From NCBI RefSeq assembly GCF_009618275.1, contig NZ_WIAD01000004.1:124001-188000 (forward strand): a DNA stretch of 64,000 nt, given 5' to 3'. The DNA is from Roseimaritima sediminicola (lineage in GTDB: Bacteria > Planctomycetota > Planctomycetia > Pirellulales > Pirellulaceae). Under the pieces are notes generated by a model. It did not search any database and had not been told where the DNA came from. It worked only from the letters and a program-made list of their open reading frames with translations. The position numbers were made by a program, and so were the translations under genes. This document shows, in pieces, positions 11,198-47,926 of this stretch (positions are counted from its first letter, which is position 1; each line of letters starts with the position of its first letter).

Positions 11198-11819
11198 CGC
11201 GTGTATCCATCCTCGGAAAGAAAGCCCCAACGCTTTTCAATGTACGGATGAACCGCAAACAGGCAACCGATTGGCAGTGTAATACCGCGGTCGTAGACGT
11301 CGTTCTCGGCTGAGGACAGCCGAGCGACTCTGTGGCATAGGCTTCCAGCCTGTGGACGGAGCGAGCCGAAATCGCGAAGCGATGGCAGTTGATAGCCTCG
11401 GATGCCAATCCGAGGTGCGACTATCAATGGGGTAGTAGGGTGCCGGCGACCTGGGATTGGCATCCCAGGCTATCGACGGTCGTTGCTTCGCAACTGGCGA
11501 TTCTCCGCGAAAGTAGCCAGTGTCGCCTTTCGCTCCGCGAAAGTAGCCCAGTGTCGCCTTTCGCTCTGCGAAAGTAGCCCAGTGTCGCCTTTCGCTCCGC
11601 GAAAGTAGCCCAGGAAGTCCAGCTACTTTCGACGGAGCGAAAGGCAACTCTCCGCGAAAGTAGCCCAGGAAGTCTAGCTACTTTCGGCGGAGCGAAAGGC
11701 AACTCTCTGCGAAAGTAGTCCAGGAAGTCCAGCTACTTTCGACGGAGCGAAAGGCAACTCTCCGCGAGAGTTGCCCAGGAAGTCTCGCTACTTTCGGCGG
11801 AGCGAAAGGCAACTCTCCG
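11198..11819. repeat. Intergenic repeat array (palindromic units)
   Basis: No gene. At 11333-11356 is a full copy of a dispersed repeat (core TGGCATAGGCTTCCAGCCTG). Around 11385-11495 are GGATGCCAATCCGAGG and GGCATCCCAGGCTATCGACG elements also related to repeats near 32.2-32.5 kb. From about 11500 to 11819 runs a dense array of CTTTCG-CTCCG-CGAAAG palindromes: first three to four units of about 34 bp, then units of about 66 bp in which each half is the inverse of the other (GCGAAAGTAGCCCAGG and CTACTTTCGGCGGAGCGAAA). Spacer lengths and sequences are repetitive, unlike CRISPR. Confidence 0.85.
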
Positions 11820-32133: not shown

Positions 32134-32618
32134 TAGTTGTTGGCGGCCGGCCACCAGTTGCCCATCGCTCCGCAATTCTAAGCGGCGAAGCCGCCAGTTG
32201 CGAAGCAACGATAGTCGATAGCCTGGGGACGTAAGTCCCAGGTCGCCCTCCACCCAAGCCGTTGCGGAGTCGCGAAGCGACGGCAGATGGTCACGCCCGG
32301 TTTACCACCTGTCATCGCTTCGCGATTCCGGCAACGCGTTTTTTCGATGCCAACCTCGGATTGCATCCGAGGCTATCCACTGCCATCGCTTCGCGATTCG
32401 GAACCGGCGTTGCCCGCCGCACAGCGCCCCGCGATTCCCAGCGGCGAAGCCGCCAGTTGCGAAGCAACGATAGTCGATAGCCTGGGGACGTAAGTCCCAG
32501 GTCGCCCGCCCCACCCAAGCCGTTGCGGAGTCGCGAAGCGACGGCAGATGGTCACGCCCGGTTTACCACCTGTCATCGCTTCGCGATTCGGGGACGAGAC
32601 CGTCCACAGGCTGGAAGC
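32134..32618. repeat. Duplicated about 150-bp repeat block
   Basis: 32181-32328 and 32440-32589 are near-identical direct repeats (same elements in the same order, one small indel). They include AGCGGCGAAGCCGCCAGTTG, GATAGTCGATAGCCTGGGGA and CGTAAGTCCCAGGTCGCC, all short palindromic modules. Between them is CCAACCTCGGATTGCATCCG, related to the element near 11.4 kb. A reverse copy of the TGGCATAGGC element (32603-32628) closes the block. No gene. Confidence 0.9.
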
Positions 32619-35200: not shown

Positions 35201-35339
35201 AGAAAACGTTTCTATGTAGGGCGGCACCCCGGGCTCGCGCCCGGGGCTACCACACGCCATCGCTCCGCGATTCGGGAACGTCCGTTCCCGTACATCGATT
35301 CCGCCCGTGTCAGCAAACCTCAGATCGCAGATCTTAAAT

Positions 35340-41035: not shown

Positions 41036-41587
41036 TTACCGAAGATCGCGCCGGTCGTCGGCCGCTTCATCCTGCCCGGCGTCTGAATTACCCCGCCCGG
41101 CGGCCGCATCATCCTGCCCGGCGGCCGGTTCATCCTGCTCGGCGGCCGGTTCATCCTGCTCGTCGCCCGGAGCATCCTGCTCGTCGCCCGGATCGGTCAG
41201 CCCGGCTTGGCGAGCCGCGGCTTTGGCGGCTTGCTCGGCTTCGCGTTCGCGGCGCAAGCGATCGAGCAATTGCCCGACTTCCAGAGCGCTGCGGGTCCCC
41301 TTATCGATTTCGAAGCGCAGCTTGGGGATGTAGCGGCTGTCGATGCGTTCGGCGATCTTGGCCTGCAGGAAGCCAGCGGCGTTTTGCAAGCCCCGCAGGG
41401 TCAACCGTTCCTGCGCCTCGTCTCCCATCACGCTGATACCGACTTTGGCGTCGCGCATGTCCGCACTCAGCTTGACGCCCACGACGGTGACGTCCTGGAT
41501 GCGCGGATCTCGCAGGTCCGTCAGGATGGCGGTCGCCACCACTTCGCGGATCGCTTCGGCGGCTTTGAGGATTCGACGACTAGTCAC
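41036..41587 (-). CDS. rbfA: Ribosome-binding factor A
   Basis: 183 aa from GTG 41587; the frame runs upstream to 41905 inside infB antisense-type sequence and is rejected. Assists 30S maturation by binding helix 1 of 16S rRNA. The KH-like fold shows VATAILTDLRDPRIQDVTVVGVKLSADMRDAKV and LRGLQNAAGFLQAKIAERIDSRYIPKLRFEID. The typical protein is about 120 residues; here an extra 55-residue acidic tail contains repeated DEQDEPAAEQDE-type units. Third gene of nusA-infB-rbfA, 91 bases after infB. Confidence 0.93.
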   Translation of the reverse strand: MTSRRILKAAEAIREVVATAILTDLRDPRIQDVTVVGVKLSADMRDAKVGISVMGDEAQERLTLRGLQNAAGFLQAKIAERIDSRYIPKLRFEIDKGTRSALEVGQLLDRLRREREAEQAAKAAARQAGLTDPGDEQDAPGDEQDEPAAEQDEPAAGQDDAAAGRGNSDAGQDEAADDRRDLR

Positions 41588-41678
41588 GGATAAAAAGGAT
41601 CCAGGTGAAGCAGGACAGACAAACCAGGGCCGCGCCGAGGGCGACGCGGCGCGGAGAGAAAAAACAGCGGCCGGGCGA

Positions 41679-44669
41679 TCAATCCAGCGTCCGAGCGACT
41701 TCTTCGATCTTGTAGGCTTCCAGCACGTCATCCTGTTTGATGTCGTTAAAGCCGGACAGCTTGATGCCACACTCCATGCCGCGAGGCACTTCCTTGACAT
41801 CTTCCTTGATCCGCCGCAGGGCTTCCAAGGGATAATCGCCGATGGTCCGGCCATCGCGATTAACGCGGATACGGCAACCACGCTGGATCGAGCCCTGAGC
41901 GACATAGCACCCGGCGATCGTTCCCACGCGGCTGATCTGGAAGGTCTGTTTGACCAGAGCTCGGCCCAATTCGACGATGCGTTCCTCGGGTCGCAGTCGG
42001 CCTTCGATCATCGCCTTGATTTCGTCGGCCAGCTTGTAGATCACGTCGTAGCGACGGATCTCCACGCCGCGTTCGTCGGCCAGGGCTCGAGCCGCATCGT
42101 CGGGAATCACGTTGAAGGCCAGGATCACCGCGTCGGAGGCCGAGGCCAAGGTGACGTCGGCCAGGCTGACGCCGCCGACGCTCCGCTGCAGGACGCGGAC
42201 TTCGACCTCGGGGTTGTCCAGCTTGCTCAGTTCTTTGTCGATGGCTTCCAGCGACCCGCGAACATCCGAGCGGATGATCACGTTCAGTTTGGTCTTCTCC
42301 TGCTGTTCGCCCAGACGTCCCTCTTCGAGCAGTTGCTGGAAGTGTTCGAAGGACACCTTGGTGGTCACGCCCGAAAGGTTCTCGGTGCGGTGGCCGTGTT
42401 CACGCGACTGAGCGATCTCGCGGGCCTGCGTGATATCGTCCAGGACGTGGAAGCGATCGCCCGCGCCCGGCGGCTCGTCCAAGCCCATGATGTTGACCGG
42501 CGTACTGGGGCCGGCTTCCTCGAGCGGTTTGTTGGTCAACGTGTTGGTCATCGCTCGGACCCGGCCGTGGGCCGCACCACAGACGACCACATCGCCGACT
42601 CGCAGGGTACCGTTCTGGACGACCAACTTGGCGACCACACCGCGGTCGCCTTGCTGTTCGGCCTCGAGACACACACCGAGAGCCTGTCGGTCCGGGTTGG
42701 CCTGGTACTCGTGCAGTTCCGCGACCGTCAGCAGGGTTTCCAAAAGCTCGTCCATGCCCATGCCGGTAATCGCACTGGTCTTGACGACTTCGGTATCCCC
42801 ACCCCATTCGCTGGGCGTCAGTTGGTGTTCGGTCAACTGGGTCATCGCCCGCATCGGGTCGACGCCTTCCAGGTCCGACTTGTTCAGCGCGACGACGATC
42901 GGCACACCGGCCGCCTTGGCGTGGCTGATGGCTTCTTCGGTCTGCGGCATGATGCCGTCATCGGCGGCCACCACCAACACGGCGATGTCGGTGACGTTGG
43001 CACCGCGGGCTCGCATCTCGGTAAAGGCTTCGTGGCCCGGGGTGTCGACGAAGGTCACCGGCCGGCCATCCTTCTCGACCGTATAGGCCCGAATGTGCTG
43101 GGTGATCCCGCCGGCTTCGCCACTGACCACATCGATGCCGATCAAGCGATCGAGCAGGCTGGTCTTGCCGTGGTCGACGTGTCCCAGGAAGGTGACCACC
43201 GGAGCACGGGGCACCAGGTTCTCCTGATCGTCTTCCTGCTCTTCGATCGTCGTGATCAGTTCGTCTTCCAGCGTCTCGTGCTCTTTCAGCTGGATATTCA
43301 GATCCAAATCGGCGGCGATCAATTCGGCCGTCTCGTGATCGATCGTGGCATTGATGTTGGCCATCGTGCCCATGCCCATCAGGAACCGCAGCACGTTGGC
43401 CACCGGCACGCCGGCAGCGGTACAGAACTCGCGAATCGTACAGGGCAGCTCGACCGTCACGGCATCCTTACGCGGGGCGGCCGTATTGACGCCCTTGCGT
43501 CGCCGCGGACCGCTGTGGCGGCCGTAGCCGCGGCGGCGACCGAAATCGCCTCCGCCGTCGAGTGTGATATTTCGCCGGTTGCCCGAGCGTCGGCTTTTGT
43601 TGCGATCCGGACGAGCACCCGCCATACCGGCATTGCGGCGTTTCTCCGCTGCGTCGTCGGCGTCGCCGCCGCGTCCACCGCGTCCCTTGGCTTTCTCGGC
43701 AAACTCGCTCAGACCACCCGTGCCGATCTTGGTCTTCTTGGTCTTTTCATCGGAGACCGTCTTGTCGATCCCGGCGGCATCGCCCTGTTTGTGGCCGGCG
43801 ATCGCATCCTTGGTGAAACGCACCTCGGGCTGCTGGGCCGGCGGTTCGCTGGGGCCTTTCTTGGCGACCGGCTGCTTGGCTTCGGGCAGAGCGGCAAGGT
43901 TGATCTTGACCGATGGCTCGCGCCGCTTGGGCGGACGGTTGCCCTTGGATTCGGACTTGTCGCCGCGATCCGGGCGGGCCCCGCGACCGATTACGCGGAT
44001 CTTACCGCCGCCACCGCCCGGGCCCATCGGGTCCCGCCGCATCGGCGAAAGCGGACCGGGCGCGGCTTCGGGACGCCTGGGGGTGGGCGACGCTTTGTCG
44101 CCGGCCCCTTGATCGCCGGAGGGCTTGCCACCCGATGGCTTGCCGCCGGATCGGGAACGGTCCTCGGCCGCCGGCTTCTCGGCCGCCGGCTGAGATGGTT
44201 TGCCAGCGGTGGGCGCCGTCTTGGTCGGCTCGCTGGCCGCCGGAGCTTGCGCCGGAGTCTCGGCCTCTTGCGAAGCCTGGGGCGCCGCAGCGGTGCCGGG
44301 CGCCGCAGCGGTGTCGGGCGATTTGCCCTCGTCCTTGCCGGACGTCTCCGCGGGTGCCGACGTGCTCAGTGGCGGCTTGCTCGCAGAACGACGGCCGATA
44401 ACGCGATTGGCCGTGCCGCGGGCTTCCACCGGATCGGCTTCGCGGACCGGTTTGATCGGGGCCGCCGGAGTGGCTTGAGCGGACGGACGCGGCGCAGCTT
44501 TCTTGGTAGCGCTGCCGTCAAGATACTTTTTGACGCGTTGAACTTCGTCGTCGTCCAAACTGGCCAATGCCGAGCCTTTACCGCTGACTCCGGCTTTTTT
44601 GCAGATCTCGACCAGTTCTTTACTGTCTAACTTTAATTCTTTTGCGAGCGCGTAAATGCGTACGGGCAC
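41679..44669 (-). CDS. infB: Translation initiation factor IF-2
   Basis: 996 aa from GTG 44669 ([20 protein letters not shown]); the frame is open to 44741. GTPase that places fMet-tRNA on the 30S subunit. The N-terminal IF2_N module is followed by a long Pro/Ala/Lys/Gly-rich spacer (about 70-395) and a second IF2_N-like segment ([20 protein letters not shown]). The G domain has G1 [10 protein letters not shown]3 DTPGHEAF and G4 NKSD. Domains II-IV follow, ending in [23 protein letters not shown]. Located between nusA and rbfA as in many bacteria. Confidence 0.98.
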
Positions 44670-44850
44670 GGGGCAAGGATCCTGTGAATCTGTTTTCAGG
44701 CCAGTCGTTGCTCCCCGAATCGAGGCGAGCGTTGCTGGCAAATTATGTCGCTAAAATTACATCATTTCCTCCGTTCGCCGGGCCTCTCACAAGGCGCCAA
44801 GCGACCATCCTGACCCGAGGGGAAGATTCCGCCCGGGACGTGGTGAAGCA

Positions 44851-46425
44851 TCAACTACTTTGCTGACTGGTTCGAGCCGCTTCGCCCGAGTCATCGCCGC
44901 CGACGGTCGAACCGTCCTGGGCAGACTGCGGGTCGGATTGGGATGAGGCGTCCGGGGACGCCGGCTGTGCCGAGTCCGCCGCGGCGGCTTCATCACCCCC
45001 TGCGGGGCGTTCTTCACTGGCTGCTGCCTCTTGACCCGCCTGCGAGTCGCCGGCGGCTTGCTCTTCGCCGGCGGGCTGTGCTTCGCCGGCGGGCTGCCCT
45101 TCGCTGGCAGGTTGTTCTTCGCTGGCAGGTTGTTCTTCGCCGGCGGGTTGCTCTTCGCTGGCAGGTTGCTCTTCGCTGGCGGGCTGTGCTTCGCCGGCGG
45201 GTTGCTCACCGGCCGCCTCGGCTTCTCGCTGCTGTTTCTCGCGGTCGCGGCGTTGTCGTCGCTCTTCGGCCGCCGCCACCTCGGCCTCTTCGGCACGCTG
45301 TTCGGCTTGTTCGACGATGCGATCGACCTGCTCTTCGCTCAAGCCGCTCATCTCCACCAGAGCATCCGGCTCGATCACCGACAGGTCATCATAGGACAGA
45401 TACCCCTGCTCGACCAACGCTCCGGCCAATTCCTCGGTGACCCCTTCCAGCTCGCTGAATCCAGAAACAGCCCGGCTGATCTGCTCTTCCAGCTCGTTGC
45501 CGGTCATGATCTCGATGTCCCAGCCGCACAACTTGCTGGCCAGCCGGACATTTTGACCGCGTCGACCGATGGCCAACGACAACTGATCTTCTTGAACCAG
45601 CACAATCGCTCGGCCAATCATGTCGCACAGCAAGACCTGTTCGACCGTGGCGGGCTGGAGGGCATTGGGAACCAGCACCAAAGGATCTTCGCTGTAGCGA
45701 ATCACATCGATGTGCTCACCAGCCAATTCTTCGCGAACCGCCTTGATCCGGCTACCCCGAAACCCCACACAAACGGCGATCGGATCGACCTGGTTGTCCA
45801 TGCTGGCCACGGCAACCTTGCTGCGATAACCGGGCTCGCGGCTGACCGATTTAATTTCGATCGTACCGTCGCCCAGCTCGGGAATCTCCTGTTCAAACAG
45901 ACGCTGCACCAATTGGGGCCGGGTTCGGCTGAGCACCACGCGGATCCGGTTGCCGGTCGCCCGAACCTCGAACACGACCGCCCGCACCCGCTCGTTGGCG
46001 TGCAGGGATTCGCCCGGAATCTGCTCGCTCCGTGGCAGGATCGCTTCGACATTTCCGAGGTTGACCGTCGCCACGCCGCCATCGGCCCGGCCGATCACGC
46101 CGCTGACGATCTGACCGATCAGTTCGCGGTATTCCAACATCAAGGAATCCCGCTCGGCTTCCTTGACCTTTTGAATGATGACTTGCTTGGCGGTCTGGGC
46201 GCCAATGCGACCGATCTGATCTTCGCCCAACGGTTCGCCATCGAGCACGGCTTGCGCACGGCCACTTTGACGGTCCAATCGCACAACGATATCTGCGTCT
46301 TCTCCGTACTGCCGCTTGGCGGCAGTTTGCAGAGCAGACTCGATCGCAGAGAACACGATTTCCTTATCGATGTTCTTTTCGCGATGAAGCGAGTCGACGT
46401 AGCGAAGGATATCTTGGGGATTCAT
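44851..46425 (-). CDS. nusA: Transcription elongation/termination factor NusA
   Basis: 524 aa from ATG 46425; the upstream extension to 46614 passes through the terminator and is rejected. Binds RNA polymerase and modulates pausing, termination and antitermination. The N-terminal domain is MNPQDILRYVDSLHREKN onward; the S1 domain spans about 135-200; tandem KH domains include VGFRGSRIKAVREELAGE and LAIGRRGQNVRLASKL. An HhH-type acidic repeat (VTEELAGALVEQGYLS) follows. An unusual 110-residue C-terminal tail is Glu/Gln/Ala/Pro rich with EEQPAS/EEQPAG tandem repeats. First gene of nusA-infB-rbfA; no rimP precedes it. Confidence 0.97.
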   Translation of the reverse strand: MNPQDILRYVDSLHREKNIDKEIVFSAIESALQTAAKRQYGEDADIVVRLDRQSGRAQAVLDGEPLGEDQIGRIGAQTAKQVIIQKVKEAERDSLMLEYRELIGQIVSGVIGRADGGVATVNLGNVEAILPRSEQIPGESLHANERVRAVVFEVRATGNRIRVVLSRTRPQLVQRLFEQEIPELGDGTIEIKSVSREPGYRSKVAVASMDNQVDPIAVCVGFRGSRIKAVREELAGEHIDVIRYSEDPLVLVPNALQPATVEQVLLCDMIGRAIVLVQEDQLSLAIGRRGQNVRLASKLCGWDIEIMTGNELEEQISRAVSGFSELEGVTEELAGALVEQGYLSYDDLSVIEPDALVEMSGLSEEQVDRIVEQAEQRAEEAEVAAAEERRQRRDREKQQREAEAAGEQPAGEAQPASEEQPASEEQPAGEEQPASEEQPASEGQPAGEAQPAGEEQAAGDSQAGQEAAASEERPAGGDEAAAADSAQPASPDASSQSDPQSAQDGSTVGGDDSGEAARTSQQSS

Positions 46426-46451
46426 GCAGACTTGTACGGTTTTCCGTAGAT

Positions 46452-46486
46452 AAAAAAAACGGCCCGGGTTGAAAATCGACCCGGGC
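46452..46486 (-). terminator. Intrinsic terminator in the nusA leader (probable attenuator)
   Basis: Perfect 8-bp stem (46462-46469 with 46479-46486, GCCCGGGT/ACCCGGGC), nine-base loop, then CG and eight U residues on the minus strand (46459-46452). It lies only 26 bases before the nusA ATG and downstream of a consensus-like promoter, so it sits inside the nusA leader. It also follows the ketosynthase-like gene and could end its transcript. Confidence 0.85.
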
Positions 46487-46513
46487 GCGTCGCAGGATCT
46501 CGTTGAATGAATG

Positions 46514-46542
46514 AGATTAACGATCTGTCCAGAGGCTGTCAA
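46514..46542 (-). promoter_or_regulatory. Sigma-70-type promoter for nusA
   Basis: Minus strand TTGACA (46542-46537), 17-base spacer, TAATCT (46519-46514). Predicted start near 46507 gives an 82-nt leader containing the terminator at 46486-46452. Confidence 0.7.
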
Positions 46543-46615
46543 CCAATAACGGCTAGGCGAAAACCACCCCACCAACCGGAGGGCGAGCCCGGTCTCGGCG
46601 GTGGTTTGCCACACC

Positions 46616-47926
46616 CTAGGGAACGAACTTGGCGATCCGGATCGCGGCGGCCTGACCTTGTGGCGTGACGTTCATACTCAGAAAGCTGTCGCCGGCGGGG
46701 GCCTGGTCGTCGACGGTGACCGGCAGGTCACAGCGGGGATCCGGCGTGCGGTAGTTCAGCGTGGGGAACAGACGCCCCTGCTGCAGAGCCATCAGACTGG
46801 CGATCGCTTCGACCATCCCACCGCCGGCCCCCAGATTGCCGAAGTGGCTCTTGGCGGCCACCACCGGAGGGATGCTTTGGCCGAAGACGTCGCGAATCGC
46901 GGCGGCTTCCTGAATGTCGCCCTCGACCGTGCCCAAGCCATGGGCGTGGATGTGCCCCACGGCAGAGGCCTGGCCCAGTGCCGAACGCATCACGTTGGCC
47001 AAGGCGTTGCGTTGGAATTGATCGGTGACCCGAGCGGCCACGGCGCTGCTGCCATAGCCGACCACTTCGCCGAGAATGTTGGCTCCACGAGCCTCCGCAT
47101 GCGACAGGGTTTCCAGAATCATCGCCCCGGCGCCCTCGCCCAGGACACCGCCGTCGCGATCGGCATCAAACGGCCGGCTCATCTGGGTCGGATCCTCGCG
47201 GTCGCTGGCCAGATCCTCCTGCATGCAGGCGTGCATGGTGCGGAAGGGATGGATCCGCGAGCCGGTGGAACCGACCAGGATCACGTCGCTGTGGCCGCGC
47301 TGCAGCGTCAGATAGGCTTCGGCCATCGCCGCGGCCGCACTGGCTTCGCGCACGGTAACGGAATTATTGGGTCCCTGCAGGTCGTTGTAGATCGCGATGT
47401 GGCTGGCCGGCATATTGGGCAAGTACTTCAGCAGCCACAGCGGATTGACTTGCGGTTTGCCCTGTTCGCCCCACTTCTCGAACTGAAACTGGCCGTCCTC
47501 GTCCAAGCATTTCTGGACCCCGGCGGCGAACTCCTCGGGCAGCGTCATGATGTAATCGCAGCCGTAGATCACGCCCGTGCGATGCGGATCTCGCTTGTCG
47601 GCCGGCAACTGGGCGTCGACCAACGCCAACTGGGCCGCCGCGACGCCCATCTCGATCTCGCGGCACATCACCTTGCTGCCCTTGCGGATCGTTCGCTGCA
47701 GCGGCTTTTCCATCGGACCGTAGTCGCCGATCGCCCCGGTGAACTCTCTGGCTTCGGCACCGTGGCTCAGCGGCAGCGGAGCGGTCGGCACGCGGGTCAG
47801 CGGCCCGACCGCACTGCGACCGGCCTGCAGGGCGTCAAACAACGCCTGGGACTCATTTCCCAGCGGACTGATCACCCCCAGACCGGTGATCACGATGCGA
47901 GGCAAGGCGTTCGTTTGTGAAACCAT
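46616..47926 (-). CDS. Beta-ketoacyl-ACP synthase homologue lacking the active-site Cys
   Basis: 436 aa with a full thiolase fold of the FabF family: RIVITGLGVISPLGN, GPNNSVTVREASAAAAMAEA, DADRDGGVLGEGAGAMILE, HIHAHGLGTVEGDIQEAAAI, AAKSHFGNLGAGGG. In active enzymes the Cys of the ACAxG nucleophile elbow would sit where Glu occurs here (VREASA), and the second catalytic His (GH) aligns with Asn (FGNLG); the first His (AHG) is kept. Such changes are known from chain-length factors and decarboxylating ketosynthases (Cys to Gln), so this protein probably does not condense on its own. No fatty acid genes flank it. Confidence 0.88.
   Translation of the reverse strand: MVSQTNALPRIVITGLGVISPLGNESQALFDALQAGRSAVGPLTRVPTAPLPLSHGAEAREFTGAIGDYGPMEKPLQRTIRKGSKVMCREIEMGVAAAQLALVDAQLPADKRDPHRTGVIYGCDYIMTLPEEFAAGVQKCLDEDGQFQFEKWGEQGKPQVNPLWLLKYLPNMPASHIAIYNDLQGPNNSVTVREASAAAAMAEAYLTLQRGHSDVILVGSTGSRIHPFRTMHACMQEDLASDREDPTQMSRPFDADRDGGVLGEGAGAMILETLSHAEARGANILGEVVGYGSSAVAARVTDQFQRNALANVMRSALGQASAVGHIHAHGLGTVEGDIQEAAAIRDVFGQSIPPVVAAKSHFGNLGAGGGMVEAIASLMALQQGRLFPTLNYRTPDPRCDLPVTVDDQAPAGDSFLSMNVTPQGQAAAIRIAKFVP

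Follow-up and report, generated by a model that had tools for sequence, protein, structure and literature searches.

Between its promoter and its start codon, the nusA gene of Roseimaritima sediminicola carries a hairpin followed by a run of U, and the locus raises the question of whether this hairpin ends the transcript of the gene upstream or acts as a brake on nusA itself. We analyzed it in a stretch of 64,000 nucleotides, referred to here as the window, and in the nusA leaders of other Planctomycetota.

The nusA locus and its leader

All genes and leader features described here lie on the minus strand. The first gene of the operon is nusA (44851..46425, 524 aa; TIGR01953, E 5.7e-99), and its ATG start is conserved, with the matches in most relatives beginning at residue 1 or 2. 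The second gene of the presumed operon is infB, encoding translation initiation factor IF-2 (41679..44741; TIGR00487, E 1.5e-207), and the third is rbfA (41036..41905), which matches TIGR00082 over residues 111-219 (E 2e-19); the true start of rbfA probably lies inside this longest open frame. The C-terminal end of nusA contains a low-complexity repeat of the EEQPAS/EEQPAG type (45067-45192). Upstream of nusA, and outside the element, lies a beta-ketoacyl-ACP synthase gene (46616..47926) whose best NCBIfam match is TIGR03150 at E 3e-77, below the cut-off of that model. Directly 3' of its stop, folding revealed a separate GC-rich hairpin with a weak U-tract (46561..46607), where a generic promoter and terminator scan also gave weak sites; this hairpin is a candidate end of the ketosynthase transcript.

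The promoter of the nusA operon was read directly as a -35 hexamer TTGACA (46537..46542) and, after a spacer of exactly 17 nt, a -10 hexamer TAATCT of the TANNNT form (46514..46519), the latter also identified by comparison within the clade. Placing the transcription start near 46507 from the position of the -10 hexamer gives a predicted leader of 82 nt (46426..46507). This leader contains the terminator hairpin GCCCGGGT-CGATTTTCA-ACCCGGGC (46462..46486), which was apparent from direct reading, from the fold and from the alignment, and which is covered by a covariance-model match (46450-46510). Its arms, GCCCGGGT (46486-46479) and ACCCGGGC (46469-46462), form an 8-bp stem with seven G-C pairs around a 9-nt loop. 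A U8 tract (46452..46459) follows 2 nt (CG) 3' of the stem and is separated from the nusA ATG (46425) by 26 nt. The layout given for this strand in the initial annotation, TTGACA-N17-TAATCT, 8-bp hairpin, U8 and nusA ATG, is exact. The predicted fold of the leader had an energy of -27.2 kcal/mol (z -2.59), and 2 of 200 shuffles folded as well.

The generic scan reported neither the nusA promoter, because TAATCT agrees with TATAAT at just three of six positions, nor the leader terminator, because the loop limit of the scan is 8 and the loop here is 9. No Rfam riboswitch scored above its cut-off anywhere in the window; matches to Spot 42 and anti-hemB at the leader were sub-threshold (E 2-4) and were taken as chance. 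Six matches to Acido-Lenti-1 RNA (RF01687) scored above the gathering score in the window, on both strands (11370-11415, 11450-11495, 32196-32242, 32354-32398, 32455-32501 and 35227-35272); a table in the paper describing the motif lists it for Acidobacteria and Lentisphaerae (PMC2864571).

Conservation and specificity of the element

We collected 149 Pirellulaceae nusA leaders, which yielded 134 distinct sequences: 54 from the window clade, in which nusA is at least 81% identical to that of the window, and 80 from other Pirellulaceae. Named members of the window clade include Rhodopirellula, Rubripirellula, Stieleria, Neorhodopirellula, Aporhodopirellula and Roseiconus. Of 149 Pirellulaceae genomes, 142 contained nusA; these 142 supplied leaders from 30 loci and 40 fetched regions, and a second match set supplied 79, with overlap between the sources. 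One leader with a truncated nusA (L070) was excluded, and five leaders outside the clade with no start codon at the match start (L083, L086, L087, L091 and L159) were used unchanged. Some leaders come from close relatives, so the leader counts are not independent.

The promoter form TTGACA-N17-TANNNT was present in all 54 window-clade leaders compared with 0 of 540 shuffled 400-nt leaders, and in 39 of the 80 other Pirellulaceae leaders compared with 1 of 800. Under a strict rule, requiring a hairpin and U-tract within 100 nt of the -10, a terminator was identified in 49 of 54 window-clade leaders (shuffles, 55/2700) and in 0 of the 39 leaders of other Pirellulaceae that have the promoter (shuffles, 8/1950). 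The promoter-terminator arrangement is therefore not universal in the family. We preferred the strict rule because a lenient fold-based scan was too permissive (window clade, 50/54 compared with 92/270 shuffles; other Pirellulaceae, 21/80 compared with 65/400); a third terminator rule gave 46/54 compared with 57/1080 in the window clade and 10/80 compared with 32/1600 in other Pirellulaceae.

The strict scan missed five window-clade leaders. L025 passes a milder rule, which the other four fail; inspection by eye revealed a hairpin with a shorter U-tract at the same place in L015, L039 and L121, and a longer, interrupted stem at the same place in L033. Among the 50 window-clade leaders accepted by the milder rule, the stem begins 18-34 nt past the -10, and the distance from the stem end to the nusA ATG ranges from 25 to 201 nt in the clade. 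The longest T run is 4-8 among the 49 distinct elements and just 4-5 in nine of them; these short runs may mean poor termination in some members. A comparison of the leader in relatives, suggested as a check in the initial annotation, thus found the order of promoter, hairpin, U-tract and nusA to be kept in the window clade across 11 genera.

Several further leader features were observed. In part of the window clade (L014, L028, L033, L042 and L047), an upstream open frame with a VDTQWPYR or similar ending reaches into the promoter and has its stop codon in the -10. In another Pirellulaceae lineage (L115, L117, L118, L127 and L132), the region up to about 100 nt upstream of nusA shares the blocks GGTAGTGAA, GGGGG, (TT)CACC(A/G)CC and CCCCC, which follow a promoter of the same type and whose order, judged by eye, would be compatible with an H-type pseudoknot. 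In a third leader type (L095, L101, L108, L110 and L150, and also L090 and L129), large hairpins that carry GCCGGCGG or GCCGTCGG at their ends lie together with a U-tract 87-137 nt upstream of nusA. This type points to more than one origin of premature terminators in front of nusA. Seven leaders (L075, L103, L105, L119, L126, L151 and L158) appeared by eye to have ACTAAG- and GGATTTTCGAGCG-like sequence in common a short way past the -10.

The specificity of the element was assessed with a covariance model built from the 49 distinct elements and searched against 241 family genomes at a threshold of E 0.01. This analysis revealed exactly one match in each of 70 genomes, with 67 of the matches in 11 window-clade genera; three marginal matches in other genera (G097, G117 and G142), located away from nusA, were left out of the count. 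The check for an adjoining nusA covered 54 of the 67 matches and was positive for 53 (29 by translation and 24 by coordinates), the remaining one (G107) being at a contig end. In the translation check, nusA lay beside the match in 29 of 30 loci, the other one being at a contig end. One genome (G113) scored below the threshold although the alignment includes its leader (L031). Searching the window's own genome for the pattern of stem and T-run gave one other place, an unrelated terminator.

The GCCCG/CGGGC part of the stem is nearly fixed across the window clade. Among the 49 elements, C-G is found at pairs 2 and 3 in all and at pair 4 in 48, and G-C at pair 5 in 47; G-U occupies pair 6 in 24 elements and pair 7 in 29, and the mean column identity of the element alignment is 46%. 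The motif GCCCGG...CCGGGC was present in 48 of 54 window-clade leaders, 0 of 80 other Pirellulaceae leaders and 1 of 40 leaders from other Planctomycetota families. We also scanned 30 window-clade genomes for terminators of other genes: rpsT terminators were found in 14 genomes, with no two alike (about five have an A(G)CCA(C/T)-like base in common, and chance may account for some of the terminators), and only four rplT terminators were found. The stem was rejected as a generic terminator consensus of the window's own genome, where 0 of the other 50 terminator-like matches (396 kb) have a GCCCGG/CCGGGC stem. The stem sequence thus seems to be conserved beyond the needs of pairing, and its near fixation suggests recognition of the hairpin by sequence as well. 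In a pairing test, 95.2% of cells pair (slid partners, at most 58%), a value reached by 2 of 500 shuffles. Changes on both sides were seen in 5 cells (9/500 shuffles) and in 3 of 9 pairs (91/500 shuffles), the covariation score was reached by 41 of 500 shuffles, and RNAalifold keeps 6 pairs of the element. Covariation is weak because the stem hardly varies, and we do not claim it as proof of structure.

Mechanism and alternative explanations

The initial annotation had raised, as an alternative, that the hairpin only ends the transcript of the ketosynthase gene, with nusA reached by read-through or expressed from another promoter. A ketosynthase gene does lie upstream on the same strand in the window, but a ketosynthase match occurs within 1.5 kb upstream in only 8 of 54 window-clade leaders (three of the 54 hold less than 1.3 kb of upstream sequence), and in one of these eight, L011, from the same genus as the window, the ketosynthase ends about 1.2 kb away. 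When 19 upstream frames were compared with Pfam, matches were obtained for six divergent frames (L017, L029, L054, L059, L062 and L069) and one on the nusA strand (L038), and no match for the other 12. Because the upstream genes differ, and in six leaders diverge, the hairpin is not simply the terminator of an upstream gene. The conserved promoter 5' of the hairpin at near-constant spacing and the separate hairpin at the ketosynthase stop also speak against this alternative, as does the lack of enrichment of promoter-like sites downstream of the hairpin (1 of 54 window-clade leaders compared with 54 of 1080 shuffles). We consider it extremely unlikely. The lack of an enriched second promoter also weighs against an independent small RNA gene, formed by the promoter and terminator, with nusA expressed from another promoter. 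A predicted RNA of about 50-55 nt with a conserved hairpin would suit such a gene, as would the stem-nusA gap of up to 201 nt in some members, but the U-tract lies just 26 nt from the ATG in the window and the element precedes nusA in every translated locus except the one at a contig end, making this explanation very improbable, although a released short RNA might still have a function. Similarly improbable is that the inverted repeat serves as a DNA operator for a repressor acting just downstream of the promoter: the 5' arm is itself a DNA palindrome in many members, but the frequent G-U at pairs 6 and 7 breaks DNA symmetry while keeping RNA pairing, and a run of at least four T follows the stem in all 49 elements.

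We next consider antitermination. Folds of the leader that included the 5' arm had a mean energy of -5.5 kcal/mol compared with -5.4 kcal/mol when the leader was shuffled and the arm kept, in a test that covered the 5' arm and the upstream leader. Over the 49 elements the mean z was -0.14, with a Stouffer value of -0.18 across 16 leader types. Pairings of CGAGCA or GAUCC with the 5' arm, picked out by eye, were rejected, as shuffled leaders do equally well. The element has the appearance of a bare terminator set between its promoter and nusA, which is what would be expected if a factor such as NusA acts directly. In Bacillus subtilis, attenuation of nusA as studied by Mondal and colleagues is said to need no antiterminator.

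Our preferred reading, to which we assign a probability of roughly two in three, is that the leader attenuates transcription of nusA-infB-rbfA and that NusA increases termination there. RNA polymerase would begin just ahead of the hairpin (by about 21 nt in the window, judging from the -10), make a short RNA of about 50-55 nt and be able to stop at the U-tract, and only read-through polymerases would express nusA, IF2 and RbfA. More NusA would mean more termination and less nusA, a negative feedback like that in B. subtilis. We infer that termination does occur in this leader, that it is partial and that it is under NusA control. NusA is the simplest controller because no antiterminator was found, and negative autoregulation by NusA would fit both the precedent reported for B. 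subtilis (PMC12288461) and the proposal made for Streptococcus agalactiae (PMC4448216). Terminators that require NusA in B. subtilis tend toward weak hairpins, according to the account in PMC8060035, and compared with these the window hairpin with its U8 looks strong, a point against our model.

The same leader could be an attenuator with an input other than NusA, such as NusG, another RNA-binding protein reading the GCCCGG stem, or a constitutive brake on nusA. The near-fixed stem, set against the more variable rpsT terminators of the clade, suggests a reader protein of some kind, the bare terminator would be compatible with such an input, and NusG is reported to aid some B. subtilis terminators as well, namely those with weak basal pairs (PMC8060035). 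Against this stand the single model match per genome, placed before nusA in the checked cases (53 of the 67), and the NusA autoregulation of the nusA operon documented in other bacteria (PMC12288461, PMC6511841). We regard a non-NusA input as unlikely.

RimP and comparison with known nusA leaders

The closest described element is the rimP-leader (RF01770) of Naville and Gautheret (2010, PMC2965389), a terminator preceding rimP-nusA-infB whose GGGc...gCCC stem is unusually conserved. As presented in that paper, it has no visible antiterminator and lies 4-130 nt from the gene, NusA is named as the best candidate for its reader with RimP kept as a possibility, and an inverse CCCg...cGGG forms a second, upstream terminator in several Gammaproteobacteria; its main text contains neither Planctomycet- nor Rhodopirellula. 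The element described here is likewise a short terminator in the 5' leader of a nusA-infB operon, with a hairpin and U-stretch, a conserved stem, no detectable antiterminator (mean z -0.14) and a variable distance to the gene. In contrast to the GGGc...gCCC stem before rimP, its invariant part is the inverse, GCCCG...CGGGC, directly before nusA. Although the window has an inner GGGU...ACCC, only 8 of the 49 elements have G-C at pair 7. RF01770 gave no match in the window and none above the gathering cut-off in 20 window-clade genomes; sub-threshold matches (E up to 1) occurred in four of the 20, none of them at nusA. The model is narrow, since its cut-off was passed in only 1 of 14 control genomes. 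Because neither stem polarity nor model score agreed, we do not assign the element to RF01770.

We also examined 40 nusA leaders from other Planctomycetota families, out of 66 other nusA-bearing genomes. These were taken mostly down the score list and are not a random sample; the nearest in-frame start codon was taken as the presumed start, the contig cut one region short, and two pairs share a genus (L274/L275 and L283/L284). A motif GUGGG...C(C/U)C(A/G)(C/U) followed by at least four T was present in 18 of the 40 compared with 1 of 2000 shuffles, as in GUGGGC-UGUC-GCCCAC-UUUUUU of L290, and on sequence grounds this GUGGG...CCCAC-U is the rimP-leader motif. A TTGAC-type promoter lay within 120 nt upstream in 9 of the 18 motif-bearing leaders (2/900 shuffles). 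The motif was found in 1 of 80 other Pirellulaceae leaders (shuffles, 1/4000) and in 0 of 54 window-clade leaders (shuffles, 5/2700); its absence from 22 of the 40 phylum leaders may be real or may reflect a misplaced start.

RimP (PF02576) was detected in 6 of the 40 other Planctomycetota genomes, always on a different contig from nusA, and went undetected in the remaining 34, while nusA was present in all 40. No RimP was found in 80 Pirellulaceae genomes or in the window's own genome. Sixteen of the 18 motif-bearing leaders are from genomes with no detected RimP, the exceptions being L290/G244 and L287/G242; in any single genome the absence may be due to incomplete assembly, many being drafts. 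Planctomycetes thus separate NusA from RimP, with the brake before nusA and RimP mostly undetected, which points to NusA. We raise, as a tentative and somewhat doubtful proposal, that the published rimP-leader is really a nusA-leader whose stem is read by NusA or NusA-bound polymerase. It would have been kept before nusA in the phylum, where most sampled genomes have no detectable RimP, and in the window clade GCCCGG...CCGGGC would have replaced GUGGGC...GCCCAC, swapping in a stem of inverted polarity. If true, the reversed orientation of the duplex would offer a natural experiment on how a termination factor recognizes the sequence of one terminator. Studies of NusA autoregulation exist for Escherichia coli and Bacillus, the literature we found leaves the reader of the conserved stem open, and the inverted stem offers a ready-made comparison for the mechanism of reading. 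In the open-licence full-text literature, of which a few papers were examined in depth, we found no description of a planctomycete nusA leader; new with respect to that literature are an element directly before nusA with no detected RimP and a clade that carries the inverted stem.

Antiterminator-type attenuators and riboswitches rely on an alternative structure that sequesters an arm, and none was found here for the 5' arm and upstream leader. In the metY-nusA-infB operon of E. coli, NusA is described as having a role in regulating its own operon and two terminators lie upstream of rimP (PMC6511841); unlike the planctomycete locus, that operon has a tRNA gene, RNase III sites, several promoters and rimP. 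The rimP-nusA operon of S. agalactiae produces short and long transcripts from one start, with an intrinsic terminator ending transcription 31 nt downstream of it, and feedback by NusA has been proposed (PMC4448216); that operon includes rimP and has RNA evidence, whereas the element here is known from sequence. The B. subtilis nusA leader shows NusA-stimulated intrinsic termination, which governs whether polymerase goes on into the gene (Mondal et al. 2016, as reported in PMC12288461). Although it belongs to a different phylum, and the NusA effect reported there is proposed here, it shares with the predicted planctomycete leader an intrinsic terminator placed between the promoter and the nusA operon.
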